In this document: positions 3,108-61,791 of the stretch, in pieces
Layout of the letters: every line of letters starts with the position of its first letter
How positions within the stretch are numbered: the first letter of the stretch is position 1
From: Caenorhabditis remanei
Taxonomy: Eukaryota > Nematoda > Chromadorea > Rhabditida > Rhabditidae
DNA: 64,000 bases
Direction of reading: 5' to 3'
Assembly (NCBI RefSeq): GCF_010183535.1
Contig: NC_071331.1
Coordinates: 22,010,001 to 22,074,000 of the forward strand
Program-made: the position numbers and the translations under genes
The notes under the pieces: model-generated
Told to the model about the DNA's origin: nothing
The model's database searches: none
Seen by the model: the letters and a program-made list of their open reading frames with translations, nothing else

Positions 3108-3287
3108 TCAGCTTGTCGAGAGCGTTCAGAAAAGTACTCATAAGCCCTAGTTCTGACCACTTTGGGTCCAATCACAAAAACTACAGTAACCCGTTTTCAT
3201 GGGGTACTGTAGTTTTCGTGGTGGGACCCAATAGTGACAGAATGTAGGCTTGTGGGTACTTTTCTGAAAGCTCTCCACGAGCTGAAT
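3108..3287. repeat. palindromic MITE, family P, copy 1
   Basis: About 180 bases, near-palindromic. The ends are TCAGCTTGTCGAGAGC and its complement; inside lie AAAAGTAC...CACAAG and a central pair of complementary CTACAGTA / TACTGTAG blocks. Four further copies lie at 3741, 4845, 5811 and 13503. Confidence 0.75.
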
Positions 3288-6180: not shown

Positions 6181-9078
6181 TTAATAAGTATTGGAAGCGG
6201 CGGCAATTGGTGCCTGAGTGATGGCCGGTGGTGGTGCCGGGGCGGCGGTGGCATCAGAAGCGGCTCCCCACGAGCTGGCTCCAGAATCAGAAGACATGGC
6301 TGGCTGGGCTCCAGAATTCCAGTTATTGTTGGCTGGAACTGGTTGGGCCGCAGCAGTGTTCCAGGTGTTGGTGGCTGGTGGTGCCTGAGGGGCGGAGCCA
6401 GTTGACCATGAGTTGGCTGGTGGTGTCTGGGATCCAGTGGACCAAGTGTTACCGGCTGGTGGGCTCTGGGCGGCTCCGGTGCTCCATGAGTTATCGGATT
6501 GCCACGAGTCGACGAGTGGTTGAGAGGCGGCTGCTGGAACTGGAACTGGTTGGGCGGCGGCTCCGAAAGTGTTTCCGTTTCCATTGTATGTTGGGTTTGA
6601 GGCAGCTGGTGGAGCGGCGGCGGCGGTGTTGTAGGTCGATGGGTTCTGGAATTGAAATTGATTTTTGAGATTTGAAAAAATTCGAAAAAAAAAATTTTTT
6701 GGAAATTTTTTTTGAGATGTTTTTGAAAATGTGATTCTAGGGCATTTTGAAGATGATTTTTGTGTTTTTCACTAAATTTCCAATGTTTTAAGCCCCATAT
6801 CGACCTATTTTTGAGCATTTTGAATTTGGTGGCCTAGAAATCCAAATTTTTGGATTTCTAGGCCACCAACCTCAAAATGCTCCAAAATAGGTCGATATGG
6901 GGCTCAAAACTCAGCAACATTTGTGGAAAACTCAAATCTGATGTTGGTTTCTTACAAAAAGTTCGATTTTCATGTTTTCAGAAATTTTGAAATTTTCCCA
7001 AAAAAATGTGTTTTCAAAAATTTCTGATAATGAGATTCTAGGATGATTAGATAATGATTTTTGTGTATTTTACAAAATTTCTGAAATTTTGAGCCCCATA
7101 TTGCCCTATTTCTGATCATTTTTAGTATGGTGGCCTAAAAATCCGAAAATTTGGATTTCTAGGCCACCATCCTCAAAATGCTTCAAAATAAGTCGATATT
7201 GGGTTAAAAATTTTGAAAATTGTTTGGAGAGTCCAAAAATCTTATCAGTTTCAAAATTGGTGGCCTAAAATTTCCTAGAATCCAAGGTCTGAGGTTTGTA
7301 GGCCATCAATTTTCAAACGCTCTAAATTACTCATCAAGTTTTGTATTTTTTTGTGCTAGAAATGTTAAATTTATATTTTTCAACAAATTTCCAAAGTTTT
7401 GAACCCCATATTGATATATTTTGGACCATTTTAAGGCTGGTGGCCTAGAAACCCAAATTTTTGGATTTCTAGGCCACCAGCCTTTAACTGCTCCAAAACA
7501 GATCGATATGGGGCTCAAAATGTTGGAAATTTGATGGAGAATCTGAATTTGTCATGAAAATCTAAGTTTTCCGACTAACCTGAGCAGCTGGATTGATTCT
7601 TGGTGCACAGCAGACGCACTTGACGTTGGTATGGTACTTGGATGGTTCCCAATCGGCTTCCGAGACATAAGTCGAGTCGACACGATGGTACTTTCCTCCA
7701 CGTCTTCTGTGATCCTTGTCGTCATCATCATCGTCGTCGTCATCATCATCATGGTCTGCGCCTCTCTTATCTCTCTTGAAAGTCTCGTCGTCGTCAGTTT
7801 TAACGATGGCCAAGAATCCGAAGAGAGCGTCATTTGGGAGTGTGGTGTCACGACGGGCGGTTTGTTGGCAGCAGAAATTACACGAATCCTCGTCATGGTT
7901 CGCCACTTCTGAGCACTTCACACGGACGGCACGGTTAGCTGGGACCGATGGGTTACTGTAACCGTATCCTGGTTGTGGGCGGTTGTGATGGTGACGGTTG
8001 GAGTCGACGACGAGGAGAACGGACGCGTCGAGGTCGCACACGAAACCTGGCAACATTCAGAGTTTTTACGGCAAATGAAAAAAAATTTGAGAAATTTTTT
8101 CATTTTCAAAAAAAAATTTGAAACCCACCCACATGACTGATATCTAACTTTTTTCGGCACTATTATGAAAACTGATCCCAAATTCAAATTTTCCAGAAAA
8201 TTTCCAAAGTTTTGAGCCCCATATTGACCCATTTTCACTCATTTTGAGGTCCGTGGCCTAGAAACCCAAAATTTTGGATTTCTAGGCCACGGATTCCAAT
8301 TTGCTCCAAAATAGGTCCATATGAAGCTCAAAATGTTGGAAATTTTGTGGAGAAATCAAATTTAATGTTGGTTTCTTATAAAAAATTAGATTTTCAGATT
8401 TCCAGAAGTTTTGAATTTTTCTTTATTGTGCTGGTGGTCTAGAAATATCTGAAATCTCGATTTCTAGGCCACCAATCACAAAACTAATCCCAAATTCAGA
8501 TTTTCCACAAAATTTCCAAAGTTTTGAGCCCCATATTGACCCATGTCCGCTCACTTTGAGTTTGGTGGCCTAGAAACCCAAATTTTTGGATTTCTAGGCC
8601 ACGGACCACAATTTGCTCCAAAACAGGTCAATATGGGGCTCAAAACTTTAGAAATTTTGTGAAAAACTCGAATTTGATGTTGGTTTCTTGTGAAATTTTG
8701 ATTTTCAAAAAAAAATTATTTCGAAAAAAAAATTTTTTGAAAATTTTTCAAAATAAGGAAAATGTAACTCACGATCCTGAATAAGTGGTTGCCAGTATCC
8801 GGGTCCATACGATGGGTATCCATATCCTCCTCCGTTGGAATACGATGGACTGCTGGATCCATACGATGGACGTGGACGGTTGTAGCGTCCGGCGGCGGCT
8901 TCCGGCTTCACCTCATCGGCTGGCTGGAATTTTTTCAAATTTTTTTTTGTTGGTGACGTTGACGTCATCTTCTGAATCCTTGACCCCAGAATCAGAATCC
9001 AGAATCCCTTACCTTGTTGTTGGCAGCGCCGAGGACGGTGGCCAGTGAGGCGACGGTCAGAAGAAGAGCGGTTTTCAT
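6181..9078 (-). CDS. secreted low-complexity protein with paired cysteine motifs (gene 1 of a divergent pair)
   Basis: Four exons: 9078-9013, 8923-8773, 8046-7580 and 6645-6181, all with GT/AG junctions and matching phases, giving 382 residues. A signal peptide is visible (MKTALLLTVASLATVLGA). Next comes a Tyr/Gly/Pro/Ser-rich stretch, then a basic cleavage-like site (KRDKRG), a run of 11 Asp with flanking Asp-rich sequence, and cysteine motifs C-NF-CC and CVCC. The last exon is a 154-residue Ala/Pro/Asn tail with repeated W-S/N-T/S-G units (NTWSTG, NSWSTG, NTWNT). A TATAAAAT box lies at 9149-9142. The plus-strand neighbour at 11376 is a shorter paralogue with the same motif order, so the two form a divergent pair. 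Function is not recognised with certainty. Extracellular or eggshell proteins of the C. elegans PERM-2/PERM-4 type are a memory-based guess. Introns carry several family Q palindromes. Confidence 0.85.
6783..7531. repeat. three family Q palindromes in one intron
   Basis: Near-perfect palindromes at about 6783-6910, 7083-7215 and 7386-7531, each with outer AGCCCCATAT arms and inner GGTGGCCTAGAAA arms. A truncated core lies at 7258-7310. All are in the last intron of the minus-strand secreted-protein gene. Confidence 0.7.
8201..8661. repeat. two family Q palindromes in one intron
   Basis: Copies at about 8201-8345 and 8508-8661 in the second intron of the secreted-protein gene, with a core-only relic between them (about 8428-8475). 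Confidence 0.7.
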
Positions 9079-13684: not shown

Positions 13685-13894
13685 GAATATTATAACAAAA
13701 TTTTTTTAGGTGGCCTAGAAACCCAAAATATCGAATTTCTAGGCCACCAGCCTCAAAATGCTCCAAACAATGTCGAAATGGGGTTCAAAATTTCAGAAAT
13801 TGCGTGGAAAAGACAAATCTGATAGTGGCAATTCCCGATTTTCTAGAAAAAAGTCTAAAATTTTAAAAAATTGAAAAAGAAAAATATCACAAAA

Positions 13895-13977
13895 CCCAGA
13901 TTCCAGGTGAAACGCTCATTTTCTAGAGTATCAATTCTCAAAGAAAATGGGTCATTACCTCTGAAATCCCGGGGATG
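13895..13977 (-). ncRNA. predicted hairpin, array 1 left terminal (class E)
   Basis: In the minus sense the arms GAGGTAATG...CATTTTCTTTGAG and CTCTAGAAAATG...CGTTTCACC pair around an 8-base loop. It is nearly identical to the right-terminal hairpin at 16126 and to the one at 60038. Confidence 0.45.
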
Positions 13978-14045
13978 TGGGGGTTACTGTAGGATCGGGG
14001 TACTGTAGATGGATCCAAAATTTTAGGATCGGGGGGGTACTGTAG

Positions 14046-14136
14046 GTCTCTAGCAAGGGGATTTTAGACACCTTTGTCATATATCACATAGGTTTGTGAT
14101 ATATATCCAAACGTGCCTAAAATCCCCTAGGGGACC
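14046..14136 (-). ncRNA. predicted hairpin, array 1 left (class A)
   Basis: Stem of roughly 30 pairs: GGGGATTTTAGGCACGTTTG with the facing CAAAGGTGTCTAAAATCCCC, then ATATATCACA with TGTGATATAT. Closing ends are GGTCCC and GAGACC. Confidence 0.45.
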
Positions 14137-14214
14137 AGAATAATAGAGAATAGTAGGATCGGGGGTACTGTAGCTAGATCCTGGATCCAGAAATTTAGGA
14201 TTGGGGTTACTGTA

Positions 14215-14303
14215 GGTCTCACCAAGGGATCTCAGACCGCTTATATGAATATCATACAGTTTTTGATATTGCAGATAAGCCATCTGTGATCCCAACGGGA
14301 CCA
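14215..14303 (-). ncRNA. predicted hairpin, array 1 left (class A)
   Basis: Closing ends GGTCCCGTTGGGATCACAG and CTGAGATCCCTTGGTGAGAC. The inner arms GGCTTATCTGCAATATC and GATATTCATATAAGC pair and are unlike those of other class A hairpins. Confidence 0.45.
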
Positions 14304-14404
14304 AGGAATACTGTAGTTATCAGAGAATAGTAGGATCGGGGTACTGTAGCTGGATCCAGGATCCAAGAATGCAGGATCGGGGAGTACTGTAGTCAAATGG
14401 AGGT

Positions 14405-14486
14405 ACCACCCCGGGGGGTAAGATAAGCAGTAACTATTCTGAAATTATTGCTCAGAATAGCTAGCGGCAGATCTTAGCTCCCAGGG
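14405..14486 (-). ncRNA. predicted hairpin, array 1 left (class B)
   Basis: Closing ends CCTGGGAGCTAAGATC and TATCTTACCCCCCGGGG; inner arms CTATTCTGA and TCAGAATAG around a GCAATAATT loop. Confidence 0.45.
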
Positions 14487-14540
14487 GGTACTGTAGAATA
14501 GAGAATAGTAGGATCGGGGGTACTGTAGCAGGATCCAGGA

Positions 14541-14553
14541 GGGGGGGGGGGGG
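14541..14553 (+). repeat. G13 homopolymer tract
   Basis: Uninterrupted run of 13 G in a spacer of hairpin array 1. Such tracts are unstable and can form G-quadruplexes. Confidence 0.9.
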
Positions 14554-14572
14554 TACTGTAGTGTCAAGAGGG

Positions 14573-14657
14573 TACCACCCCGGGAGATGAGATAAGCACT
14601 GACTATTCTGAAATTGTTGCTCAGAATAGGCCAGGTGGTTGATCTCAGCTCCCAGGG
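14573..14657 (-). ncRNA. predicted hairpin, array 1 left (class B)
   Basis: Arms GGGAGCTGAGATCAACCAC and GTGCTTATCTCATCTCCC, with inner CTATTCTGA and TCAGAATAG. Close relative of the hairpin at 60781. Confidence 0.45.
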
Positions 14658-14806
14658 GGTACTGTAGCTGGATCCAGGATCCAGAAATTTAGGATCGGGG
14701 TACTGTAGGAGGGGATCCGAGATAGGATCGGGTATTTTCATAGATCCTGATTCTAGAAAATTCCCGGAAAACCGGATTGAATGATTTCCGGGGGGCCACC
14801 ACCCGG

Positions 14807-14936
14807 CTTTTATACCCCCACGAGTGGGCGGAGCCTATTTTCCACCGGACGGCCGTTCTGCTAAAGTGGTGATCGGCAAGTGGTCATCAATCGAGCGCAC
14901 TTTCCTAGCAAAGGGGCGGAGCCTGGGGTATAAAAG
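14807..14936. promoter_or_regulatory. divergent promoter at the centre of hairpin array 1
   Basis: Minus-strand TATAAAAG at 14814-14807 and plus-strand TATAAAAG at 14929-14936, about 115 bases apart. Between them are mirrored GGCTCCGCCC / GGGCGGAGCC boxes and a TCATCAATCGAGCGCAC segment. The same order occurs at 33026-33154 and 60481-60631. Confidence 0.65.
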
Positions 14937-15000
14937 AGCGGCGGTGGCCCCCTGGAAATCATTCATTCCAATTTTTCCCCTCTCCTGGGACACCCTGGGG

Positions 15001-15060
15001 GATCCGAGTAGTCTCCGGCTAACTTCAAAAATCAGAAGTTAGCAGAGACTCCTAGGATCC
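15001..15060 (+). ncRNA. predicted hairpin, array 1 right (class D)
   Basis: Short strong stem: GATCCGAGTAGTCTCCGG then CTAACTTC, facing GAAGTTAGCAGAGACTCCTA then GGATC, with an 8-base loop. It is the first hairpin after the leader and recurs at 32906 and 60354. Confidence 0.5.
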
Positions 15061-15140
15061 ACCGGTGTGGTGGACCTACAGTAACCCCTCTTGGATCCAA
15101 CTACCGTACCCCGATCCTATAATCCCTGTGCTACAGTACC

Positions 15141-15225
15141 CCCCGGGAGACGAGATATATCATGTGGGCATATTCTAGATGGTGTCAAAAGAATATGCCA
15201 GTGATTATTTCATCTCCCGGGGTGG
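15141..15225 (+). ncRNA. predicted hairpin, array 1 right (class B)
   Basis: GGGAGACGAGATATATCA and GTGATTATTTCATCTCCC close the stem; GGCATATTCT and AGAATATGCC pair perfectly inside. Counterpart at 32740. Confidence 0.5.
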
Positions 15226-15302
15226 TACATCTACAGTATCCCCTCCCCCATGATCCAGGATCCAGCTACAGTACCCCCGATCCTGTTATTCTCTATTATT
15301 TG

Positions 15303-15389
15303 GGTCCCACTGGGGGCAGGCAGTCGTGAAAGGGAAACTCTAGCATCCTACTGAATTTCTCTACCACGTCTACCGGCCCCCGGTCGGAC
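15303..15389 (+). ncRNA. predicted hairpin, array 1 right (class C)
   Basis: Ends GTCCCACTGGGGGCAGGCAG and CCGGCCCCCGGTCGG; a longer, bulged inner stem. Counterparts at 32584 and 60193. Confidence 0.4.
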
Positions 15390-15454
15390 CTACAGTAACC
15401 CCCATCCAGGATCCAGCTACAGTACCCCTGATCCTACTATTCTCTGCTATTCAA

Positions 15455-15545
15455 GTCCCTCCGGGGGTCAGAAAACTTGTGCGAATAGTTCTAGACCGTT
15501 TCCTTGAATATTCACACACGTTTTCTAGGCCCCCGGTGTGCCGGA
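15455..15545 (+). ncRNA. predicted hairpin, array 1 right (class C)
   Basis: AGTCCCTCCGGGGGTCAGAA and TTTTCTAGGCCCCCGG close the stem; inner CTTGTGCGAATA and TATTCACACACG pair with one bulge. Confidence 0.45.
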
Positions 15546-15628
15546 CCTACAGTAACCCCGATCCTATATTTTTGGATCCTGGATCCAGCTACAGTACCCT
15601 CGATCCTACTATTCTCTATGCTACAGTA

Positions 15629-15715
15629 CCCCCTGGGAGCTGAGGTTGACTAATGCAATGCTCTAGAACACGTATCTCAAGATCAATGCAGAGCCACCTT
15701 CACCTCCCAGGTGGG
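15629..15715 (+). ncRNA. predicted hairpin, array 1 right (class B)
   Basis: CCCCTGGGAGCTGAGGTTGA and CCACCTTCACCTCCCAGG close the stem, with TGCAATG... and ...CAATGCA inside; the loop is large. Confidence 0.4.
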
Positions 15716-15789
15716 TACACCTACAGTAACCCCGATCCTAAAATTTTGGATCTGATCCTGGATCCAAAAACCTACAGTAACCCAATTGG

Positions 15790-15873
15790 TCCCCTTGGGA
15801 TCTTAAGCTGCTTGTGGTTTCTATCTTAATCTCATAAAAAGATAGAGAGACAATGCACCTTAAGATCCCTTGT
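15790..15873 (+). ncRNA. predicted hairpin, array 1 right (class A)
   Basis: GGGATCTTAAG and CTTAAGATCCC, then TTTCTATCTT and AAGATAGAGA, give about 28 pairs. Counterpart at 32423. Confidence 0.5.
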
Positions 15874-15969
15874 GAGAGACCTACAGTACCCCCGTATCCT
15901 AAAATTTTGGATCCAGGATCCAGCTACAGTACCCCCGATCCTACTATTCTCTATGCTACAGTATTCTTT

Positions 15970-16055
15970 GGTCCCGTTGGGATCACAGAGGGCTTTATCT
16001 ACTATATCTGACAGTATCTGATATAGAGGTAGTCTGTCTGAGATCCCTCAGTGTG
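15970..16055 (+). ncRNA. predicted hairpin, array 1 right (class A)
   Basis: Ends GGTCCCGTTGGGATCACAG and CTGAGATCCCTCAGTG; inner arms rich in TATCTAC and TATATC pair with GATATAGAGGTAG with bulges. Confidence 0.4.
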
Positions 16056-16125
16056 ACCTACAGTAACCTCCGATCCTAAAATTTTTGGATCCAACTACAG
16101 TACCCCGAGGCTACAGTAACCCCAC

Positions 16126-16207
16126 ATCCCCGGGATTTCAGAGGTAATGGCTCATTTTCTTTGAGAATTGATACTCTAGAAAATGAGCGTTTCACCTGGA
16201 ATCTGGG
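16126..16207 (+). ncRNA. predicted hairpin, array 1 right terminal (class E)
   Basis: Arms GAGGTAATGGCTCATTTTCT and AGAAAATGAGCGTTTCACC pair closely. Inverted copy of the left-terminal hairpin at 13895. Confidence 0.5.
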
Positions 16208-16301
16208 TTTTGTGATATTTTTTCAACTTTTTCAATTTTTTAAATTTCAGACTTTTTTCTAGAAAATCTGGAATTGCTACTATCATATTCGTCTTTTCCA
16301 C

Positions 16302-16454
16302 ACGATTTCCAAAGTTTTGAGCCCCATATTGGCCCACTTTCGCGCATTTTGAGGTCCGTGGCCTAGAAACCCAAAATTTTGGATTTCTAGGCCACCAGCC
16401 TCAAAATGCTCCAAAATGGGTCAATATGGGGCTCAAAATTTTGCAAATTTCACG
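16302..16454. repeat. palindromic element, family Q
   Basis: Outer arms GAGCCCCATATTGGCCCA and its complement, inner GGCCTAGAAA and TTTCTAGGCC. It lies between hairpin array 1 and the peptidase gene; the matching copy at 59772 sits at the same relative place beside array 3. Confidence 0.7.
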
Positions 16455-32254: not shown

Positions 32255-32422
32255 AGAATATCGATAATTTACCTCACAATTGCCTTTTCACTATTCCATG
32301 TTGTATTATTTACTCGCCAATTTCTGTAAATTCCTGTAAATGAATCAATTTCCAAAATTTTAGGATCGGGGGTACTGTAGCTGGATCCTGGATCCAGAAA
32401 TTTAGGATCGGGGTTACTGTAG

Positions 32423-32516
32423 GTCTCTCACAAGAGTTCTTAAAATGCATTGCATCTCTATCTTTTCATATGTTCCAGATAGAGAACACAAGCATCTTAA
32501 GATCCCAAGGGGTCCC
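32423..32516 (-). ncRNA. predicted hairpin, array 2 left (class A)
   Basis: GGGATCTTAAGATGCTTGTG with TGCATTTTAAGAACTC, and TCTCTATCT with AGATAGAGA, pair in the minus sense. Counterpart of 15790. Confidence 0.45.
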
Positions 32517-32583
32517 ATGAGATTACTGTAGGGTTTTGGATCCTGGATCCAGAAATTTAGGATCGGGGTTACTGTAGGTCCCG

Positions 32584-32665
32584 ACCGGGGGCCAGTAGCC
32601 GTGGAACAGAAAATCAGTATGGTGTTGGAGTTTCCCTTCGACGACTACCTGCCCCCAGTGGCGCC
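32584..32665 (-). ncRNA. predicted hairpin, array 2 left (class C)
   Basis: Ends GGGGGCAGGTAGTCGTCGAA and GGCTACTGGCCCCCGG. Almost identical to 60193. Confidence 0.4.
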
Positions 32666-32739
32666 CAAATAAGAGAGAATAATAGGATCGGGGGTACTGT
32701 AGCTGGATCCAGGATCATGGGGAGGGGGTACTGTAGATG

Positions 32740-32828
32740 TACCACCCAGGGAGATGAGATAATCAGCGGCATATTCTCATGATACCATCTAGAATATGCC
32801 CACATGATATATCTCGTCTCCCAGGGGG
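32740..32828 (-). ncRNA. predicted hairpin, array 2 left (class B)
   Basis: GGGAGACGAGATATATCATG and GATTATCTCATCTCCC close the stem; GGGCATATTCT and AGAATATGCC pair inside. Counterpart of 15141. Confidence 0.5.
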
Positions 32829-32905
32829 TACTGTAGCACAGGGATTATAGTATCGGGGTACGGTAGTAGGATCCAAAAGGGGTTACTGTAGGTCCACCAC
32901 ACCGG

Positions 32906-32970
32906 TGGATCCTAGGAGTCTCTGCTAACTTTTGATTTTTGAAGTTAGCCGGAGGCTACTCGGATCCCCC
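32906..32970 (-). ncRNA. predicted hairpin, array 2 left (class D)
   Basis: GGATCCGAGTAGCCTCCGGC and AGCAGAGACTCCTAGGATCC pair across CTAACTTC and a GAAGTTAG-like partner. Confidence 0.5.
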
Positions 32971-33025
32971 GGGGTGTCCCAGGGGGGAAATTGGAATGAA
33001 TGATTTCCGGGGGGCCACCGCCCCT

Positions 33026-33154
33026 CTTTTATACCTCAGGCTCCGCCCCTTTGCTAGGAAAGCGCGCTCGATTGATAACCACTAGCCGATCACCACTCTT
33101 GTAAAACGACCGTTCTGTGGAAAATAGGCTCCGCCCACTGGTGGGGGTATAAAT
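33026..33154. promoter_or_regulatory. divergent promoter of hairpin array 2
   Basis: Minus TATAAAAG (33033-33026) and plus TATAAAT (33148-33154), with GGCTCCGCCC boxes and the CGCGCTCGATTGATAACCAC segment between. Both sides lead into GGAAATCATTCATTCC leaders. Confidence 0.6.
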
Positions 33155-33350
33155 GGGAGGGTGGTTGCCCAGTGGAAATCATTCATTCCGGTTTTCCGGG
33201 TTTTCGGGAATTTTCTAGAATTGCAATCTATGAAAATACCCGATCCCTTCTAGGATCCCCACCTACAGTACCCCCGATCCTGATTTTGGATCCTGGATCG
33301 AACTACCGTACCCACGATCCTACTATTCTCTATGCTACAGTATTCCTTTG

Positions 33351-33431
33351 TCCCGTTGGGATCACAGAACGGTTCAAATACAAGATCTGACAATATGTAA
33401 TCTTGAGCTAACCGTTCTTAGATCTCTCGGT
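33351..33431 (+). ncRNA. predicted hairpin, array 2 right (class A)
   Basis: Ends GTCCCGTTGGGATCACAG and AGATCTCTCGGTGTGAG; inner AACGGTT and AACCGTT, and ACAAGAT and ATCTTGA, pair. Counterpart at 61430. Confidence 0.5.
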
Positions 33432-33733
33432 GTGAGACCTACAGTAATCCCTATCCTAAATTTTGGAGCCTGCTACAGTAACCCCGTGTTGAGACCTAAA
33501 TCAGGCCAAACATGGTATGATTATATTTTTCTGAAAGCTCTTGATGAGTGGAATGCGACTGTGCAAATAGGAATTTGAAATGTTTGGATCCTGCAGAGAA
33601 ACAATTCAAAAATGGAAAACAAAACTGTTACCAGGCTGGTCTCAATTCCTTTCTTGTAAACACTAGAGAGTTCTGCCTAACTGTGGTTTATTTCATGTGA
33701 AAATTAAGAAAAAATAATTGGAAAATAAATGGA

Positions 33734-36076
33734 TTATTTATGAAGAGAAAGAGATTTCTCAAAAAGAAAAGCCAACACGTCGTGGTCCATTTCCTTGGGA
33801 TTCTTAGACATTACAGCACGAATATCTTCCACAGTTTTGATCTGTTTCAGACAGAATTCCTGAAAAGAAGTTGAGTACACTTGTTGTTTTAATTGAACAG
33901 TTTTGATACCTTTAATTCATTCGAATTGAATTGCACAGCCAAATCGAGTTTCTCTTTCAGACTCTTCTTTGATTCTTTAATCAAATAGAATTGACACTTT
34001 TGAATGACTCTTTTTGCATCGAACATGTCTGCTAGTTTCAGTATCCCATCGACTGTTTCATCTGGAATTTAGAGAGATCATAAAGAAAACGTACAGTAAT
34101 CGTTACCATTGATAACAGGGTCTCCATAAAGAGATTCGAGAAACAATTGGAAGTATTTCGCTTCGACATCTTTCAGACTGATTTCATCTTTCTTCGATTC
34201 TTCGAAACTTCCGATGAACAGAGATTTGAAGTAGGAAGATTCCGAGGCAAGGAACTGCAAATAGTACTTTGATTGAGACACCATAATACCTTTGAAATAC
34301 TCACCAATTTATTCACATAGAACTTCTTCTCCTCGACCACCAACACGACATCACTAAACTCTTTCACCGACTCATCGAACAGTCGTGGTGTAACATTTAC
34401 GAATTCGATTTCTGTTTTGTTTTCAATTGCAGTGGCTTGGGGCTTCCTGACTCCATTTTCCTCTACTTCATACACTTCCACATGACATTCAATTGTCATT
34501 TTTCCATCAACGACATACCTTGGATCTTTTTGAAACGAGATCGCGCAAACTTCTCCAAATCTTCCTTCTTTCTGACAAATTGTCTCAACACCATTCTTTG
34601 TTCTGATTTTAAATTCGATTTTCCAGTAAAGTGACGGAGGTGGACTCTCCCATAGTGCCAAATCAACCAACCACCTTGAATCATTTTCTTTGCGACACCC
34701 GATGCAACTGAAATTGTAAAAAAGAGTTGTTTTCACAAACGAAGTTGTTTTTGTGAGAATAAATGTTGTACTGGTACTACTATCCTACTAGAGAACAGTG
34801 TGTGCTCTCAAATTTTTTTTTTTGAAAAATTCAGATTTCGAAAGAAACCGAAAGATGTTTCAAAATACTTTCCGCTAAAGAGAGCGCCGATTGGGATTTT
34901 AGAGCATCGTTGTTTTTTCAAATTCTATTTTTTTTTAAATTTTGTTGGTATTTTCGATTAATTTTTTGTTGAACATAAGTTTAGGGGAAGTTTCGAAATT
35001 GTATTGCTATAAAACACCAAAACTTCACTGAATTCAGTAGAAAAAGGCGCCGATTTAGTAATTTTTGTATACTGTATGAACTTTTTTTTGCTATGCGCCT
35101 TTAAGCTACAGTAGGAATATTTTCGAAAATTCTTTCGAAATTGCTTCGAAGGCACACACTGATAGAGAATATCACCAAGTGACCGTGGAGTTATGGAACG
35201 TCACTTATATCATTGGATGGCGGAGAATACTCAAATTTATGTAGTTCTACAGTGAATTTAGTGATTAAAAGTACTTGAACATTATTTTTGGGGTGTTAAA
35301 ATTCAAAAAAAATTGGAAAAAGCCAGCAAAATCTGTCCCTCGGCTGGCCCATCACCTTTCTGACACACGAAAATTGAGTTAGAACTTTGTTGGAATTTTC
35401 GTGTGTATATATTAGACCTCGAGAGTAAAAAGTGAGTATATATTTGGAATGAGAGTTTTCTTAGCTTTCCAATGATATAAGTGACGTTCCATCCCCTCAA
35501 AAAGAACTACAAGACACGCGAAGCCAATTTTTTGCACGAATTAATTCTATTTTTCTATTTTTTGTTCTGAAATTGTAGTATTTTCAGGTTTTCGGATGGA
35601 ACAATGAATGAAAAAAGGTCCCATCCATCAGAATTGTAGAAAATTAAATTCTTTATCTTATAAACCACAAAACGTGAATTTTGGTCAGAAATTGACTTTT
35701 GTGATACAGAAAAACAGATTTTCAGAAAAGTGATTATAACTTTTTTTAACAGAAAATATTTTGAACAGAAATTACAGGAAATGTAACTCCCCGGTCACTT
35801 GGTGACATTCCCTATTTAGATACCTCAAAAATAAAATGTTGCGGTAGACTAGTTTTGGGCAGAATGTGTGATATTGTTCCTCTCAGACTTGAAAAGATGT
35901 TTCGATTAAATTCGAAAGATTGTTTTGACAGTATTCAAAATGACACAAATAGTTTAAGAGTAAACTAACCAAATGTATCCGTTGATTGTTTCTGTTGGTC
36001 CAAAACACGTATCACCTGTTGATAACTGCACAACACGGAAAGTATGAGATAAAATTAACTGTCCAAGAAGAACCAT
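33734..36076 (-). CDS. MATH-BTB protein, copy A (BATH family, CUL3 adaptor type)
   Basis: Five exons: 36076-35970, 34707-34305, 34254-34107, 34061-33910 and 33859-33734. Phases are compatible; 311 residues. Residues 5-140 are a MATH domain (KFxxxHxF-like start, WKIEFKIRT, DGKMTIECHVEVYEV). Residues 150-250 are a BTB/POZ domain (FSDVVLVVEEKKFYVNKL, FLASESSYFKSLFIGSFEES, KYFQLFLESLYGDPVI), and a helical C-terminus follows. In this nematode-expanded family the BTB domain binds cullin-3 and MATH binds substrates for ubiquitination. The first intron is about 1.26 kb and contains palindromic elements. All splice sites look functional. Copies lie at 46161, 53552 and 61792, with a partial one at 37331. 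The exact C. elegans bath number is not assignable. Confidence 0.85.
35146..35825. repeat. inverted-repeat element in MATH-BTB intron 1 (CACCAAGTGACC ends)
   Basis: GAATATCACCAAGTGACCG with ACGTCACTTATATCATTGGA near 35165-35220 reappears inverted near 35460-35490 and 35790-35810. Fragments occupy the same place in copies B, C, D and E. Confidence 0.55.
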
Positions 36077-37330: not shown

Positions 37331-39122
37331 TTACATACTGAGAGCCAGGTAATTCTTTGGAAGATTGGAGATTATCCGTCCAGTAAGCTGTGTGACGACT
37401 CGACAAAATGGACACTGAATTTGATCCGGTAGGGCAATACCTTTGCAGCAACCAAGGCATAGAGTGTGTCCACAATCCAAAACTCGTGGCGTTCTGTCTC
37501 CATCCTCTCCATATTCTTACAAACAAATAGTACATTGTTTCCATGGCAAAGTCTCTTTCTTCTTCTGTTGCTCCTTAGCCTTCTCGAATTCTTTCTTGCT
37601 CAACGATATTGCCGTTTCTAGCTCCTTTACCTTAATTGTCAGTTGATTGATCTGATCATGAACTCCGATTTCTGTTTCGTTTTCAATTACCGCCCGGGGC
37701 TTCCTGACTCCATTTTCATCTACTTCATACACTTCCACATGACATTCAATTGTCAAGTTTCCATCAACGAAATACTTTGGATCGTTTCGAAACGAGAGCA
37801 CGGGACTGTCTTGATATCTTCCATCTGTCGTACCAACTGTCTCAACACCATCATTTGTTCTGATTTTGTACTCGATTTTCCAGTGAAGTGACGACGGAAG
37901 TAGACTGTTCCATACTTCCAAACCAATCACCCACTCTGATTCATTTTCTTTGTAACACCCGATGCGACTGAAATTGTAAAAAAGAGTTGTTTTCACAAAC
38001 GAAGTTGTTGTTGTGAGAATAAATGTTGTCTCTGGTACTACTATCCTACTAGAGAACAGTCAGTGCTCGAATTTTTTTTTGAAAAATTCAGATTTCGAAA
38101 GAAACCGAAATATGTTTCAAAAACACTTTCCGCTAAAGAGAGCGCCGAGCGGGATTTTAGAGCATCGTTGTTTTTTCAAATTCCATTTCTTTTTCTTTTT
38201 TTTGTTGGTATTTTCGATTAATTTTTTGTTGAACCTGATTATTTTAGGGGAAGTTTCGAAATTTTATTGCTATAAAACACCAAAACTTTACTGAATTCGG
38301 TAGAAAACGGCTGATTTTGTAATTTTTGTATACTGTATGAAATGGTTTTGCGATGCGCCTTTAAGCTACAGTAGGAATATTTTCGAAAGTTCTTTCGAAA
38401 TTGCTTCGAAGGCACACACTGCTAGAGAATATCACCAAGTGACCGTGGAGTTAAGGACCGTCACTTATATCATTGGAATGCGGAGAATACTCAAATATTA
38501 GGTTGGCAAGAAAGTTTTTGACCATGATTTGTTTTGAATGCTGTCAGACAAATGACGAGAATCAAAACCAACTATGCATGGCCTATGTTAGATAAACTCT
38601 CTGGAATTCTGATAGTATACAGCATTTCCCTCCGACGCTTCCCTTCTGGGAGAGCACTGCCTATTTTCTTTCTTGACCAACAATTCTTACAGCAATATTT
38701 TCGATTTCCCATTACATGTTATACTAATATTACTATAATTGCTCAACCGATAGGAGAACTTAGCAAGGGTGAAATTTTCTATCGACACACTAAAAGTAAT
38801 TTAGTTCACAGCATTGAGAAATGTCATTTTTAATGATCAAAGTATCACGTACTAAAAAACCATATGAACAGGATTTGTACATGTTGTGAGTTATAGAGGA
38901 AGAGTATCCATCCAAGTATTTTTGTGAATTAGACTTGAAAAGACGTTTCAATTAAAGTCGAAAGATTGTTTTGACAGTATTCAAAATGACACAAATAGTT
39001 TAAGAGTAAACTAACCAGTCTACTCCGTTGATCGTTTTTGTTGGTCCTAAACACAAACGACCTGTTGATAACTCCACAACAGGAAAGGAATGAGATAACA
39101 TAAACTTTCCAGTGTGATCCAT
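37331..39122 (-). pseudogene. MATH - coiled coil - RING chimera (copy B) with a stop inside the RING
   Basis: Exon 1 is 39122-39016, and exon 2 starts at 37967. Exon 2 encodes a MATH domain like the other copies up to ENETEIG, then a Glu/Lys-rich heptad-like helix (HDQINQLTIKVKELETAISL and on), then QCTICL followed by TAA at 37519-37517. Without the stop the frame runs 61 more codons to 37331 and completes a C3HC4 RING: CTIC, then DCGHTLCLGCC, then CPFC. The stop falls where GAA (Glu) would be expected from the following EYGED, so one base change could explain it. The open part is 185 residues. The BTB exons are absent, so this copy swapped its C-terminus. It may be a nonsense allele, or a truncated MATH-coiled-coil protein may still be made. 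Confidence 0.7.
38504..38860 (+). mobile_element. mariner-like terminal repeat fragment
   Basis: After a TA, the sequence TTAGGTTGGCAAGAAAGTTT starts exactly where the other MATH copies diverge (after GCGGAGAATACTCAAAT). This is the classic mariner 5' end. No transposase motif or matching right end is recognised, so the right limit is a guess. Confidence 0.5.
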
Positions 39123-44449: not shown

Positions 44450-44575
44450 ATGGCCGTCCGTTCCACCAAAACCGACCAACTCGAGAATGGACCGGAATAC
44501 GGGATAACTGTAACACTGACCATCAAATCGAGGCAGAATAATGGAGACGATGAGGAGGAATTCGTGGAAGACGGA
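44450..44575 (+). pseudogene. LINE-truncated copy of an acidic orphan ORF
   Basis: Matches the intact ORF at 53225 (VRSTKTDQLENGP, GITVTLTIKSRQNNGDDEEE) up to base 44575, where the retrotransposon begins. The last ~90 coding bases are missing. Confidence 0.55.
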
Positions 44576-46035
44576 TATTTGGAAGACCGCTATGGTTATT
44601 CCAGTTTTCAAAAAAGGAGCCCGTTCCAATCCAGGAAATTACCGACCCATTTCCCTAACATGTTCTACTTGCAAAGTTTTAGAAAAACTTGTCCGAAGAT
44701 CTCTATTGGAGCATTTAGCTATCAACAAGTTACTGTCCAATGCCCAATATGGGTTTCGCTCCCGAATGAATACTGAGTTGCAGTTGTTGAACTATGTGGG
44801 TCTCTTGATTAGTAATTTGGAACGCAATAAGCCTGTCAATGCTGTTTATATTGATTTCCGTAAAGCTTTCGATACTGTTGCTATACCTAAATTGAAGATC
44901 AAACTTAAAGCTTATGGCATTCAAGGGAAGCTTCTGAATTGGATAAACTCTTTCCTCAGTGGAAGATCTCAAAAAGTCTTGCTAAATGGAGTTCTCTCCA
45001 ATTATTCCTCGGTGGGTACTGGCGTGCCCCAAGGCTCTGTCCTTGGGCCACTACTATTCCTCCTATATATTAATGACATTGGTGATAAATTAAAATCAAA
45101 CCCCCTTACTTTATGCAGACGACCTGAAACTTATTTCTCCTGACGCAGTCACAATTCAGAATGACCTGAAAATGCTATCCGAATGGTGCCAGTCCTGGCA
45201 GATGAACGTAGCACCAAAGAAATGTGAACTGACCACATTCGTCAAGTCTAGAAGAAAAAGTGTGAAATCGAACCCTATGCTCAACATATCTCTTGGTGGT
45301 TTACGCTTACCAAAATGTGAACCTATTCGTGATCTTGGAGTTATTTTCTCCTCTGATTTATCTTTCGATTCTCATATAAATTCTGTTATACGAAGAGCTC
45401 ACTGTCGAATCAATATGCTTTTTAATGTTCTTAGGAATTCAGTATTCGGAGTGATGCTGAAATGCTATAAGGTTTTTATCCGACCTATTATTGAATATGA
45501 CTCTACGATATATTCCCCCACGCTCAAATGTCTCATCAAAAAATTGGAATCAGTCCAAAAATCGTTTATTTATCGCTGCTCCAAGAAGTTTAACTTTGAA
45601 TACATATCCTATTTCAAAACTTTGGAAACCTATGAATTGGAATCTTTGGAATATAGACGACTAATCAACGATCTAGTTTACTTGTATAAAATAGTTGTAT
45701 CTAAGGAATTTTACTCCCCAAATCTGCTGTTTACCTTGTTTCCAAACCTTAAGTCTTTAAGACGACATCCTTTCCATATTAGATCTATCCTGTCTAACAA
45801 CTCTAAATTCGGTGCTCAATACTTACCCAACCGTTTATTATCCTGTTGGAATTCCCTTCCTGTTAATGTTTTCCCGGTAAAACCATCCTCCCACTGTTTT
45901 AAAAATAATGTCAAAGTTCTCGATTTAACTCTGTATCTTACGCTTAACATGTCTAACTACTAATTTTAGTATCCTATTTCTCTTTTTTCCCTCTATTGTG
46001 ATTGTGTTAGTGGCTTTTGGCCCTTCATCTCAAAT
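44576..46035 (+). mobile_element. 5'-truncated non-LTR retrotransposon (jockey/CR1-like) with a frameshifted reverse transcriptase
   Basis: The reverse transcriptase reads from the element start in one frame to 45143 (VIPVFKKG, NYRPISLT, AVYIDFRKAFDTV, GVPQGSVLGPLLFLLYIND). It then continues in another frame from the catalytic YADD at 45112-45123 to a stop at 45963. The shift lies beside a C5 run just before YADD, so the enzyme is inactive. The thumb and C-terminal RxxxRR-type region (LESLEYRRLINDLVYLYKIV) is present; no endonuclease remains. Compared with the intact locus at 53350-53440 it replaced about 90 bases of target. The 3' end merges into AAATAAATAAA. Confidence 0.85.
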
Positions 46036-46160: not shown

Positions 46161-47834
46161 TTATTTAAATTCAAGCAATTTCTCAAAAAGAGAAGCCAAG
46201 ACGTCGGGATCCATTTCCTTGGGATTCTTAGACGTTACCGAACGAATATCTTCCACAGTTTTGATCTGTTTCAGACAGAATTCCTGAAAAGAAGCTGAAT
46301 ACATTTGTTGTTTTGATTGAATAGTTTCGATACCTTTAATTCATTCGAATTGAATTTCACAGCCAAATCGAGTTTCTCTTTCAGACTCTTTTTTGAATTC
46401 TTGATTAAATATACCTTACACTTTTGAATGACTCGTTGTGCATCGAACATGTCTGCCAGTTTCAATATCCCATCGACTGTTTCATCTGGAATTTAGAGAG
46501 ATCATAAAGAAAATGTACAGTAATCGTTACCATTGATAACAGGATCTCCATAAAGAGATTGCAGAAACAATTGGAAATATTTCGCTTCAAAATCTTTCAG
46601 ACTGATTTCATCTTTCTTCGATTCTTCGAAACTTCCGATGAACAGAGATTTGAAGTAGGAAGATTCCGAGGCAAGGAACTGCAAATAGTACTTTGATTGA
46701 GACACCATAATACCTTCGAAATACTCACCAGCTTTAACACATAGAACTTCTTCTTCTCGACCACCAACACGACATCACTAAACTCTTTCACCGACTCGTC
46801 GAACAGTCGTGGTGTCACATTTCCGATTTCTGTTTCGTTTTCAATTACCGCCGTCCTGACTCCATTTTCATCTACTTCATACACTTCCACATGACATTCA
46901 ATTTTCATGTTTCCATCAACGAAATACTTTGGATCGTGTCGAAACGAGATCTCGGAAACTTCTCCAAATCTTCCATCTGTCGTACCAACTGTCTCAATAC
47001 CATCATTTGTTCTGATTTTGAATTCGACTTTCCTGCCAAGTGACGTAGGTAATTCATTCTTCCATACTCCCGAACCAATCGCCCACTGTGATTCATTTTT
47101 TTTGCAACACCAGATGTGACTGAAATTGTAAAAAAGAGTTGTTTTCACAAACGAAGTTGTTGTTGTGAGAATAAATGTTGTCTCTGGTACTACTATCCTA
47201 CTAGAGAACAGTCCGTGCTCTCGAATTTTTTTTGTTGAAAACTTCAGAATTCGAAAGAAACCGAAACCGAGTGATAAAAAGTACTTGAACATTATTTTTG
47301 CGGTGTTTAAAATTCAAAAAAAATTGGAAAAAGCCAGCGAAGTCTTTCCCTCGGCCGGCCGATCACCTTTCTGACACACGAACATTTAGTTAGAACTTTG
47401 TTGGAATTTTCGTGTGTCACAAATGTATTAATCAGTCATTTTTGCGAAACGTTGGCCTTGTTTTCATCGGACCTCGAGAGTAAAAAGTGAGTATATATTT
47501 GGAATGAGAGTTTTCTTAGCTTTCCAATGATATACGTTCCATAACTCCACGTTCACTTGGTGACATTCCCTATTTAGATCCTTCAAAATCAAAATGTTGC
47601 GGTAGACTAGTTTTGGGCAGAATGTGTGATATTGTTCCTCTCAGACTTGAGAAGACGTTTCGATTAAAGTCGAAAGATTATTTTGACAGTATTCAAAATG
47701 ACACAAATAGTTTAAGAGTAAACTAACCAATTGTATTCGTTGATCGTTTCTCTTGGTCCCTCACACCAATAACCTTGTAATAACTCCACAGTAGGAAAGG
47801 AATGAGATACCATAAACTTTCCAGTGTGATCCAT
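46161..47834 (-). CDS. MATH-BTB protein, copy C
   Basis: Exons 47834-47728, 47119-46729, 46678-46531, 46485-46334 and 46283-46161; 306 residues, all junctions canonical. MATH: GKFMVSHSFPTVE, GRKVEFKIRTNDG, DGNMKIECHVEVYEVDENG. BTB: FSDVVLVVEKKKFYVLKL, LASESSYFKSLFIGSFEES, FLQSLYGDPVI. It differs from copy A mainly within the MATH domain, the presumed substrate-binding part, while the BTB is nearly identical. Intron 1 is shorter (about 610 bases). It likely acts as a CUL3 adaptor. Confidence 0.82.
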
Positions 47835-59771: not shown

Positions 59772-59930
59772 AATTTCCAAAGTTTTGAGCCCCATATTGA
59801 CCCGTTTTGGAGCAATTTTGGGTTGGTGGCCGAGAAATCCAAAAATTTGGGTTTCTAGGCCACCAACTCCAAAATTTCAAAATCTTCTGAAGTAGGTCGA
59901 TATGGGGCTCGAAACTTTGGAAATTGCACG
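59772..59930. repeat. palindromic element, family Q, between immp-2 copy and array 3
   Basis: Equivalent, in inverted orientation, to the copy at 16302-16454. Outer arms GAGCCCCATATTGACCCG and its complement. Confidence 0.7.
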
Positions 59931-60037
59931 GAAAAGACAAATATGATAGTTGTTCTGGCTGTAATTTCAGAAAACATTTTCTGGAAAAAATCTGAATATT
60001 TTTAATTTGGAAAAAAGTTGAAAAAATATCACAAAAC

Positions 60038-60120
60038 CCAGATTCCAGGTGAAATGCTCATTTTCTAGAGTATCTATTCTCAAAGAAAATGGGCCATTAC
60101 CTCTGAAATCCCCGGGGATG
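60038..60120 (-). ncRNA. predicted hairpin, array 3 left terminal (class E)
   Basis: Same fold as 13895 and 16126: CATTTTCTTTGAG pairs with CTCTAGAAAATG, flanked by GAGGTAATG and CATTTCACC. Confidence 0.45.
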
Positions 60121-60192
60121 TGGGGCTACTGTAGGATCGGGGTACTGTAGTTGGATCCTGGATCCAGAAATTTAGGATCGGGGTTACTGTAG

Positions 60193-60280
60193 GTCCCGAC
60201 CGGGGGCCAGCAGCCGTGGAACAGAAAATCAGTATGGTGTTGGAGTTTCCCTTCGATGACTACCTGCCCCCAGTGGGACC
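60193..60280 (-). ncRNA. predicted hairpin, array 3 left (class C)
   Basis: GGTCCCACTGGGGGCAGGTA and GGCTGCTGGCCCCCGGTC close the stem. Nearly identical to 32584. Confidence 0.4.
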
Positions 60281-60353
60281 CAAATAATAGAGAATATTAG
60301 GATCGGGGGTACGGTAGTTGGATCCAAAAAGGGGTACTGTAGGTCCACCGTAC

Positions 60354-60420
60354 CGGTGGATCCTAGGAGTCTCTGCTAACTTCTGATTTTTGAAGTTAGC
60401 CGGAGACTACTCGGATTCCC
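60354..60420 (-). ncRNA. predicted hairpin, array 3 left (class D)
   Basis: GAATCCGAGTAGTCTCCGG and AGAGACTCCTAGGATCC pair, with CTAACTTC and GAAGTTAG inside. Confidence 0.5.
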
Positions 60421-60480
60421 CGGGGTGTCCCAGGAGAGGGGAAAATTGGAATGAATGATTTCCAGGGGGCCACCGCCCCC

Positions 60481-60631
60481 CTTTTATCCGGAATCTAGGC
60501 TCCGCCCCCAGAAAAAGGGCCCCCCTTCGCTAGGAAAGTGCGCTCGATTGATAACCACTTGCCTATCACCACTCTTGCAAAACGGCCGTTCTGTGGACAA
60601 TAGGCTCCGCCCACTGGTGAAGGTATAAAAG
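60481..60631. promoter_or_regulatory. divergent promoter of hairpin array 3, one side decayed
   Basis: Plus TATAAAAG at 60624-60631; the minus side reads GATAAAAG at 60488-60481 and has an extra GGGGGCCC-type insert. GGCTCCGCCC boxes and the GTGCGCTCGATTGATAACCA segment are kept. Confidence 0.6.
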
Positions 60632-60780
60632 CCGGGTGGTGGCCCAGTGGAAATCATTCATTCCGGTTTTCCGGGTCTTCCGGGAGCTTTCTAAAATTAG
60701 AAAATACCCGATCCTATCTAGGATACAGCTACAGTACCCCCGATCCTATATTTTGGATCCTGGATCCAGCTACAGTACCC

Positions 60781-60859
60781 CCCGGGAGCTGAGATCAACC
60801 ACCTGGCCTATTCTGAGCAACAATTTCAGAATAGTCAGTGATTATCTCATCTCCCGGGG
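60781..60859 (+). ncRNA. predicted hairpin, array 3 right (class B)
   Basis: CCCGGGAGCTGAGATCAACC and GATTATCTCATCTCCCGGG close the stem; CTATTCTGA and TCAGAATAG pair next to an AGCAACAATT loop. Confidence 0.5.
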
Positions 60860-60940
60860 TGGTAAACCCTCTTGATACTACAGTACCCCTCCCTACAGTA
60901 CCCCCGATCCTATTTTTCTCTATACTACAGTATTCCTTGG

Positions 60941-61020
60941 TCCCGTTGGGATCACAGTGAGGTTGGTTTGCTGTATCTAACAGTGCCAGATACGTAACCA
61001 ACCTCTCTGAGATCCCTCGG
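60941..61020 (+). ncRNA. predicted hairpin, array 3 right (class A)
   Basis: Ends GTCCCGTTGGGATCACAG and CTGAGATCCCTCGGTG; inner GAGGTTGGTTTGCTGTATCT pairs with AGATACGTAACCAACCTC. Confidence 0.5.
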
Positions 61021-61109
61021 TGTTAGACCTACAGTACCCCCGATTCTAAAATTTTAGATCCTGAATCCACCTACAGTACCCCCGATCCTACTATTCTCTA
61101 TTCTACAGT

Positions 61110-61193
61110 ACCCCCTGGGTGCTGAGATCGACTACCGTGGTTGCCCTAGACTGTAGTTTCAGAGCAACCGGTGCTTATCTCATCTCCCGGGGT
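61110..61193 (+). ncRNA. predicted hairpin, array 3 right (class B)
   Basis: CCCTGGGTGCTGAGATCGAC and CTTATCTCATCTCCCGGGG close the stem; GGTTGCCCT and AGAGCAACC pair inside. Confidence 0.45.
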
Positions 61194-61429
61194 AGTACCT
61201 CCTTGACACTACAGTATCCCCGATCCTAAATTTTTGGATCCTGGATCCAACTACAGTAACCCCCGATACTACTATTCCCTGCTATTCGGGTCCTATAGGG
61301 GGTTAGACGACTCGTTTTCTAGCTCGCGGTCTGGAGGACCAACAGTACCCCCGATCCTAAATTTTTGGATCATGGATCCTGCTACAGTACCCCCGATCCT
61401 ACTATTCTCTATGCTACAGTATTCCTTTT

Positions 61430-61512
61430 TCCCGTTGGGATCACAGAACGGTTCAAATACAAGATCCGATAGTATCTGATGTTGAGCTAACCATTCTGAG
61501 ATCCCTCGATGT
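61430..61512 (+). ncRNA. predicted hairpin, array 3 right (class A)
   Basis: Ends CCCGTTGGGATCACAG and CTGAGATCCCTCGATG; arms AACGGTTCAAATACAAGATC and GATGTTGAGCTAACCATT. Counterpart of 33351. Confidence 0.45.
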
Positions 61513-61791
61513 GACACCTACAGTAATTCCGATCCTGAATTTCTACCTCCAACTACAGTAACCCCGTTCCGAGACCCAAAGTGATTCAAACATGGTCATG
61601 ATTATACTTTTCTGAAAGCTCTTAGGGAGGTGAATGCGACTGTGCGAAGTGAAATTTGAATTGTTTGGGTCTTGCAGAGAAACAACTCAAAAATGGACAC
61701 AATTCCTTTTTTGTAAACACTAGAGGATTCTGCCAAACTGTGGTTTATTTCATGTAAAAATTAAGAACATAGAATTTGGAAAATGAATGAA

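Follow-up and report, generated by a model that had tools for sequence, protein, structure and literature searches.

Candidate microRNA-like hairpin clusters around putative divergent promoters at three paralogous loci of Caenorhabditis remanei

Results

Three hairpin arrays share one layout

Three low-copy arrays of stable hairpins, each built around a putative divergent promoter, lie on chromosome IV of Caenorhabditis remanei (PX506), within a 64-kb stretch of that chromosome's right arm (hereafter the window). Their anatomy, copy number, fold stability and promoter geometry are direct observations. At a little short of an even chance, we tentatively read the arrays as miRNA-like clusters that are specific to the lineage and transcribed divergently, a microRNA interpretation that is plausible though unproven. 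The loci may be private to the C. remanei lineage; the genome searches covered C. remanei. The main rival, which we consider quite possible, is an amplified foldback block without a product. Here palindrome units and a dispersed repeat (CTACAGTA) would have spread jointly as unequal exchanges and inverted duplications occurred in an arm that recombines and is rich in duplications, the promoter would have been captured from a gene, and the hairpins would persist through youth or through template-switch repair of quasi-palindromes at the DNA level.

An earlier note on this DNA had placed the arrays, built on one plan, at 13.9-16.2, 32.3-33.5 and 60.0-61.5 kb, and they were recovered there with a common layout:

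13880..16222: array A1, 13 hairpins distributed on the two sides of the candidate divergent promoter; centre inverted relative to A2 and A3; ends are 103-nt inverted repeats
13880..13982: A1 terminal inverted repeat, left copy, 103 nt, 98% identical to 16120-16222, overlapping hairpin L5
16120..16222: A1 terminal inverted repeat, right copy, 103 nt, overlapping hairpin R8
32355..33490: array A2, candidate divergent promoter with 5 hairpins around it
60030..61570: array A3, candidate divergent promoter with 7 intact hairpins and one remnant

In total, 25 hairpins are intact and one more, A3R4, is a shortened remnant. Terminal inverted repeats were present in A1 only, where they favour the foldback rival, and no ends are common to all three arrays. 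The 103-nt repeats, which are themselves hairpins, are absent from the earlier note.

Promoter halves with fixed TATA-initiator spacing

Two candidate outward core promoters were located in the centre of each array:

14929..14969, plus strand: A1 right, TATAAA at 14929, TCATTC at +30, leader GGAAATCATTCATTCC at 14954-14969; GC box GGGGCGGAGCC immediately upstream
14774..14814, minus strand: A1 left, TATAAA from 14814, TCATTC at +30, leader at 14774-14789 with one mismatch
32993..33033, minus strand: A2 left, TATAAA from 33033, TCATTC at +30, leader at 32993-33008
33148..33189, plus strand: A2 right, TATAAA at 33148, TCATTC at +31, leader at 33174-33189
60448..60488, minus strand: A3 left, GATAAA from 60488, TCATTC at +30, leader at 60448-60463
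60624..60664, plus strand: A3 right, TATAAA at 60624, TCATTC at +30, leader at 60649-60664

The distance from the TATA-type box to TCATTC was 30, 30, 30, 31, 30 and 30 bases, so that all six halves have the TATA box and the initiator about 30 bases downstream that mark a Pol II TATA promoter, one of them with GATAAA. This supports the divergent promoter proposed in the earlier note; its outward TATA pairs over 115-145 bases were found at TATA-to-TATA distances of 115, 115 and 136 bases, but the left box of A3 is not TATAAA. The leader was exact in five of the six halves, and GGTGGCCC was likewise present in five, A2 right carrying GGTTGCCC instead. Among the 77 TATAAA motifs of the window, downstream TCA[GT]T[CY] accompanied 5/5 in the arrays versus 3/72 elsewhere (Fisher p=3e-6, which overstates independence given that the array promoters are paralogous to one another). 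The three non-array cases (9149 minus, 11326 plus and 51162 plus) all have GC-box-like sequence upstream.

The likeness between A-side and E-side promoter halves starts at TATA, stops at the leader and spans 39-51 bases, as would be expected if the core promoter were under constraint. Altogether, the motifs support a divergent TATA plus initiator promoter in the arrays, and six outward core promoters with a fixed spacing speak against the foldback rival. The leader was also considered as a genome-wide mark and set aside: with up to two mismatches it occurs at 223 places in the genome, and at the 15 non-array places inspected (one direction scripted, the other by eye) no TATA[AT]A was present 25-35 bases before it.

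Low copy number of promoter and hairpins

The promoter block was found at three genomic places (a lower bound), namely A1, A2 and A3, a low number that also counts against the foldback rival. As it was found at the array loci only, the arrays are, by this sequence count, no dispersed MITE; neither the many dispersed copies nor the common ends of such elements were seen, and the hundreds of genomic copies by which the earlier note would have recognized a neutral MITE did not materialize. The exact base motif of hairpin family D occurred at 5 places, all within the arrays, as did 6 of 7 matches to the E/B base motif and 3 of 3 matches to the family A arm. The spacers, on the other hand, belong to the widespread genome-wide C. 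remanei repeat CTACAGTA, which is also present inside a gene at 11.4-13.4 kb. At C4:24.70 and 24.71 Mb, spacer repeats surround a decayed copy. Both points favour the foldback rival.

Hairpins are more stable than shuffled sequence

All hairpins were folded, and all except the remnant were compared with shuffles:

A1 right, plus strand: R1 14985-15078, R2 15136-15232, R3 15300-15392, R4 15453-15548, R5 15626-15719, R6 15787-15883, R7 15967-16055, R8 16119-16215
A1 left, minus strand: L1 14568-14660, L2 14400-14492, L3 14212-14304, L4 14044-14138, L5 13887-13985
A2 left, minus strand: L1 32888-32982, L2 32734-32834, L3 32575-32668, L4 32420-32517
A2 right, plus strand: R1 33344-33440
A3 left, minus strand: L1 60342-60436, L2 60192-60284, L3 60026-60124
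A3 right, plus strand: R1 60773-60866, R2 60935-61030, R3 61110-61204, R4 (remnant) 61280-61342, R5 61422-61520

On the outward strand the intact hairpins (n=25), as delimited, are 89-101 bases long, contain 27-39 pairs and have loops of 3-13 bases; the earlier description gave 75-95 bases, 25-35 pairs and loops of 8-15 bases, and the loops in particular are often shorter. In the comparison with shuffled controls that the earlier note had called for, 23 of the 25 were matched by none of 100 dinucleotide shuffles each, and A1R7 and A3R5 by one (mean z -5.8). For miRNA precursors a stem norm of 35 +/- 1 bp is given in PMC9856966. Judged by a single stem-loop, a stem near 35 bp and a stability above that of shuffles, 24/25 hairpins are precursor-like, although several fall below or above the norm; A3L1 has two extra small side hairpins at its base. 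By plain MFE the outward strand was the more stable one in 15 of 26 hairpins (remnant counted). Many other strong hairpins and palindromes occur elsewhere in the window, as the foldback rival would have it; thus stable hairpins by themselves are not unusual there, whereas the shared layout is.

Similar lower stems and variable upper stems

Lower stems are similar among hairpins, with a GGG common to 24/25 in the alignment and a 5' arm of 29-37 nt from GGG to loop in the 21/25 hairpins where the script located it. In 16/25 hairpins the lower stem carries UG at its base, though often paired; GAG with a central mismatch (the mismatched GHG mark) was recognized by eye, and then only in family D. 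A mismatch at position 6 or 7 from GGG, with differing letters (C-A, A-G, A-A, C-T; by eye), recurs in families B, C, D and E; palindrome repair would tend to erase it, and it therefore weighs against the foldback rival; the mismatches of family A are located elsewhere.

Upper arms within families D and E show just 55-67% identity yet keep their pairing, again at odds with the foldback rival. Natural D/E hairpins average ~8 kcal/mol below within-family arm swaps, and 4 of 10 members pair strictly best with their own partner; in families A, B, C, F and T the penalty for swapping arms was 0 to 2.2 kcal/mol. RNAalifold over all 25 hairpins returned just 6 pairs, since the upper stems are left unaligned by MAFFT. 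A covariance model of E and B (R1, 7 sequences) recovered its own seven and gave E values of 0.002 for A1R1, 0.007 for A2L1 and 0.17 for A1R4; its reach into family A was weak, and families C, D, F, H and T, as well as A3L1, were missed altogether. A single family for all hairpins was therefore rejected, and their common descent is not established by this model.

Constraint among close paralogs is weak

Hairpin conservation above the spacer level was not found in either comparison of arrays. Identities between A1 and A2 were 97% (hpA), 94% (spacer), 92% (hpB), 94% (spacer) and 85% (hpC), and between A1 and A3 96% (hpA), 89 and 93% (spacers) and 85% (hpC). Better conservation of hairpins was accordingly dropped as support, and the likeness of both divergences fits the foldback rival. 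Changes at paired sites of close paralogs comprised 18 WC/GU, 13 WC/AC, 19 other breaks and 1 compensatory change, so that the pair was kept in 19/51 classifiable changes, against a drift expectation of roughly a quarter (our own, unsimulated estimate). GU exceeded AC by 57 to 34 over the 25 related hairpins (p=0.02), by 29 to 16 in A1 alone (p=0.07) and by 31 to 19 with one hairpin per family or subfamily (n=14, p=0.12). This outward-strand wobble bias is weak, and its lack of clarity among close paralogs is a further point for the foldback rival. The kept outward orientation was rejected as evidence because inverted duplication preserves it without selection.

For constraint on paired sites, the deep families D and E give a moderate signal and close paralogs no clear one. 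The microRNA or hairpin-siRNA cluster proposed in the earlier note gains from the divergent promoter, the precursor-sized stable hairpins and the low copy number, but not from the paralog tests; since these were negative or weak, the amplified-foldback alternative remains.

No match to described families

At gathering score no Rfam family matched anywhere in the window, so at that score no hairpin counts as a member of a described Rfam family of animal microRNA genes. Sub-threshold matches were discarded as support: A1 had 13 (12 to miRNA families), no better than two control stretches of equal length with 13 (10 miRNA) and 51 (mostly miRNA) at better scores. No report of these arrays was found in the literature covered, in which the two primary C. 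remanei small-RNA surveys figure by citation in PMC4255771. RNA-seq has yielded 149 C. remanei miRNAs and 47 more, as reported in PMC4255771, and the array hairpins may already be among them.

Discussion

In the miRNA-like reading, the divergent Pol II core promoter (GC box, TATA, initiator at +30) would drive two outward primary transcripts, each a row of ~27-39 bp hairpins with spacers drawn from the widespread repeat. Drosha/Pasha and then Dicer would release miRNA-like small RNAs, the similar lower stem serving as docking part and the variable upper stem as guide duplex. Transcription, cutting, Argonaute loading and any target are predictions from the sequence. If the arrays are expressed, the three paralogous clusters offer a built-in comparison of the same promoter with differing hairpin content, and would show new microRNA clusters arising from repeat-spaced palindromes and the evolution of a constant base with a variable guide. 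If they are silent, an amplified foldback block can closely mimic a microRNA cluster, which calls for caution in annotation.

A bolder version, rather improbable in our estimate, sees the arrays as a library of small-RNA guides under diversification: the processing machinery would grip an invariant hairpin base, upper stems would be mutated or replaced yet stay self-paired, and a dedicated two-way promoter beside a BTB gene cluster would express them, perhaps as part of a genetic conflict unique to C. remanei. We lowered its probability slightly because the covariance model does not join all families.

It is unlikely that the arrays are hairpin-siRNA (hpRNA-like) loci, whose hairpins would be diced to siRNAs silencing nearly perfectly complementary genes. 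The inverted repeats do adjoin a cluster of BTB genes present in many local copies, and hpRNAs suppress selfish genes in Drosophila simulans, as described in PMC10292708 and PMC10317233. Guide-length queries matched the rest of the window slightly better than shuffled ones, at >=16/22 in 25/100 real versus 27/200 control cases, but no piece beyond the arrays exceeded 17/22 (3/100 real and 2/200 control at that level). Upper-arm 22-mers of families A, B and E, three of ~50 arms, found no counterpart beyond the arrays even when 3 mismatches were allowed, and the hairpins are short and mismatched. Equally doubtful is a real promoter for another product, a spliced non-coding or short-peptide transcript with the hairpins as passengers. 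The core promoter at 11326 resembles those of the arrays and stands before a gene, recognized by eye, in which the spacer occurs as well, and A1 has one ATG-stop frame of 98 aa; yet the longest frames are 63 aa in A2 and 57 aa in A3, and the same hairpin families come back behind the promoter across arrays.

Among known systems, the mammalian clusters C19MC and C2MC are supported by small-RNA reads. Like these lineage-specific tandem miRNA clusters of mammals, C2MC being located in an Sfmbt2 intron (PMC3212979, PMC6346411), the arrays consist of many related hairpins duplicated within one lineage; unlike them, they are candidate clusters laid out as two outward rows from one putative divergent promoter. 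Drosophila hpRNA loci share inverted-repeat sequence potentially yielding small RNAs, whereas the array hairpins are short and clustered, with no near-perfect target for the three arms tested. Foldback elements and MITEs likewise have internal palindromes and, as A1 alone does, terminal inverted repeats, but they do not share the three promoter-block copies (a lower bound), the lack of ends common to all arrays or the internal divergent Pol II-type promoter. Within the genus, the mir-64 cluster, with seven genes in C. remanei, eight in C. latens and homologs of its members identified in eight Caenorhabditis species, is described in PMC4255771 as tandemly duplicated and fast-changing; the arrays differ from it in matching no Rfam family at gathering score, and resemble it as clustered, tandemly duplicated and fast-changing hairpins in C. 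remanei.

Layout and copy number of the arrays

Each of the three arrays of microRNA-like hairpins (A1, 13880-16222; A2, 32355-33490; A3, 60030-61570) consists of two hairpin rows directed outward from a central divergent promoter. To the left and right of it stand 5 and 8 hairpins in A1, 4 and 1 in A2, and 3 and 5 in A3, where one on the right is a shortened remnant; the centre of A1 has the opposite orientation to those of A2 and A3. With families A-H and T assigned by eye from hairpin alignments, the row of the A-side promoter half reads A,B,C,G,E,F,D,T in A1, A,B,C,F in A2 and A,C,T in A3, and that of the E-side half E,E,D,H,T in A1, D in A2 and E,D,E,(remnant),D in A3. From this family order, the arrays appear to descend from one ancestor, with later gains and losses of hairpins. 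Since the genetic map of PX506 (PMC10461856) has the right high-recombination arm of chromosome IV begin at 17.1 Mb, and the window is C4:22010001-22074000, the arrays are located on that arm.

The earlier note held that hundreds of MITE-like copies would speak against a microRNA cluster. Such numbers were not seen in the genome (130,466,896-base assembly, 186 contigs), where the promoter block was found at at least three loci (among the matches listed, only A1, A2 and A3) and the D base motif matched exactly at 5 places, all inside the arrays. With up to 2 mismatches, this motif gave 17 matches vs 8 for the reversed control; the E/B base with up to 3 mismatches gave 7 (6 inside arrays; control 1) and the A arm 3 (all inside arrays; control 4). 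The spacers between hairpins, namely CTACAGTA, CCGATCCTA and the palindromic GGATCCTGGATCC, match many places on contigs C1-C5, and CTACAGTA also lies within the small secreted-looking gene at 11.4-13.4 kb. Among tandem spacer copies outside the arrays, E-like hairpins with a shortened upper stem were found at two loci:

C4:24.704 Mb (L051:1560-1640), E-value 8e-6
C4:24.711 Mb (L063:1443-1523), E-value 3e-6

Two more loci matched weakly (E-values 0.06 and 0.24). The L051 hairpin is antisense within an intron of a BTB-type gene, intron and gene being read by eye.

Divergent promoter

The paired, outward-pointing TATA boxes of the earlier note stood as TATA-type boxes in all six promoter halves, the A3-left one being GATAAA rather than TATAAA. 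Their distances to the initiator TCATTC are 30, 30, 30, 31, 30 and 30 bases. Of 77 TATAAA in the whole window, TCA[GT]T[CY] follows downstream in 5/5 within the arrays vs 3/72 elsewhere; these three, the only boxes outside the arrays that have an initiator some 30 bases downstream, are:

9149, minus strand, just upstream of minus-strand open frames
11326, plus strand, preceding the small secreted-protein gene (read by eye)
51162, plus strand

All three have a GC-box-like sequence upstream. The likeness between A-side and E-side halves spans 39-51 bases; it starts at TATA and stops where the leader ends. Of the signs that the arrays are, or recently were, transcribed, this promoter geometry is the strongest.

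Hairpin folds and their shared base

Folded on the outward strand, each of the 25 intact hairpins (named by array, side and number outward) forms 27-39 pairs below a loop of 3-13 bases; they are near the size of animal pri-miRNAs, for which a stem norm of 35 +/- 1 bp is given (PMC9856966). A single stem-loop formed in 24, and A3L1, as delimited, also has two small side hairpins. Folding better than shuffled sequence, on which the earlier reading depended, was borne out: with 100 dinucleotide shuffles each, 23/25 beat all controls, and A1R7 and A3R5 were each reached once. When all 25 were aligned with MAFFT, 24 had a GGG in common on the 5' side of the lower stem (CGG in A1R4), its first G lying outside the main stem in A3L1 and the three T hairpins. 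The 5' arm from this GGG to the loop measures 29-37 nt in 21/25 hairpins, a count that leaves out A1R2, A1L1, A3R3 and A1R5, for which the script took the wrong GGG. A covariance model built on families E and B picked up A1R1 and A2L1 with weak scores and A1R4 at an E-value of 0.17; because it missed A3L1 and families C, D, F, H and T, a single origin of all families is not established.

Within families D and E, members share 81-96% identity in the lower 11 bases and 55-67% in the upper arms. Natural D upper stems have 16.2 pairs vs 13.9 in within-family arm swaps (natural mean reached by 2/20 swaps) and E upper stems 16.0 vs 14.7 (6/20); shuffled arms gave 13.0 and 12.0, respectively. Since natural upper stems thus pair more than swapped or shuffled ones, there is a moderate case that the D and E arms changed jointly over the longer term. 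The upper stems are not clearly faster-changing than their surroundings, because flanks of the same hairpins are 59-82% identical.

Constraint and the microRNA reading

Between A1 and A2, identity in order is 97% (hairpin A), 94% (spacer), 92% (hairpin B), 94% (spacer) and 85% (hairpin C); between A1 and A3 it is 96% for hairpin A, 89 and 93% for spacers and 85% for hairpin C. Hairpins of close copies are thus about as conserved as spacers, which favours an amplified foldback block without product, an explanation that we rate only somewhat below a miRNA-like product. In seven close groups covering 18/25 hairpins, the 58 varying paired sites comprised 18 kept by wobble, 1 compensatory change, 13 changes to A-C, 19 other breaks and 7 without a Watson-Crick state. 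The wobble excess on the outward strand was 57 to 34 (p=0.02) for all 25 hairpins, which are related to each other, 29 to 16 (p=0.07) for A1 and 31 to 19 (p=0.12) when each family or subfamily was represented by a single hairpin, 14 in all. No clear constraint is seen in the recent evolution of the hairpins.

Judged by sequence, the arrays are built like a divergently transcribed hairpin-RNA cluster, and on paper they would work like a microRNA cluster; we tentatively predict a miRNA-like product, rating this slightly below even. In Rfam, the whole window had no match at gathering score. Sub-threshold matches in A1 were rejected as microRNA support, being no better than those in control stretches. 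RNA-seq surveys of C. remanei are reported to have yielded 149 miRNAs and then 47 more (PMC4255771), and some array hairpins may already be among those published.

Neighbouring features

34173-34736, 37517-37996, 46597-47292, 53900-54640 and 62114-62521, minus strand, similar open frames lying in a cluster
44541-45963, plus strand, two adjoining frames
3132-3262, 6785-6911, 7396-7522, 16312-16442 and 59784-59914, other very strong palindromes, with 53-57 pairs when folded on the plus strand

Of three clustered frames compared with Pfam, 53900 and 62114 contain a BTB domain and 46597 had no match. The first frame at 44541-45963 matches a reverse transcriptase (PF00078) and the second had no Pfam match; the pair is probably a retroelement remnant. 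A2 and A3 have a right flank in common, near ends of the clustered frames. Palindromes of the GTGGCCTAGAAA type lie on both sides of A1, with a similar palindrome to the left of A3.
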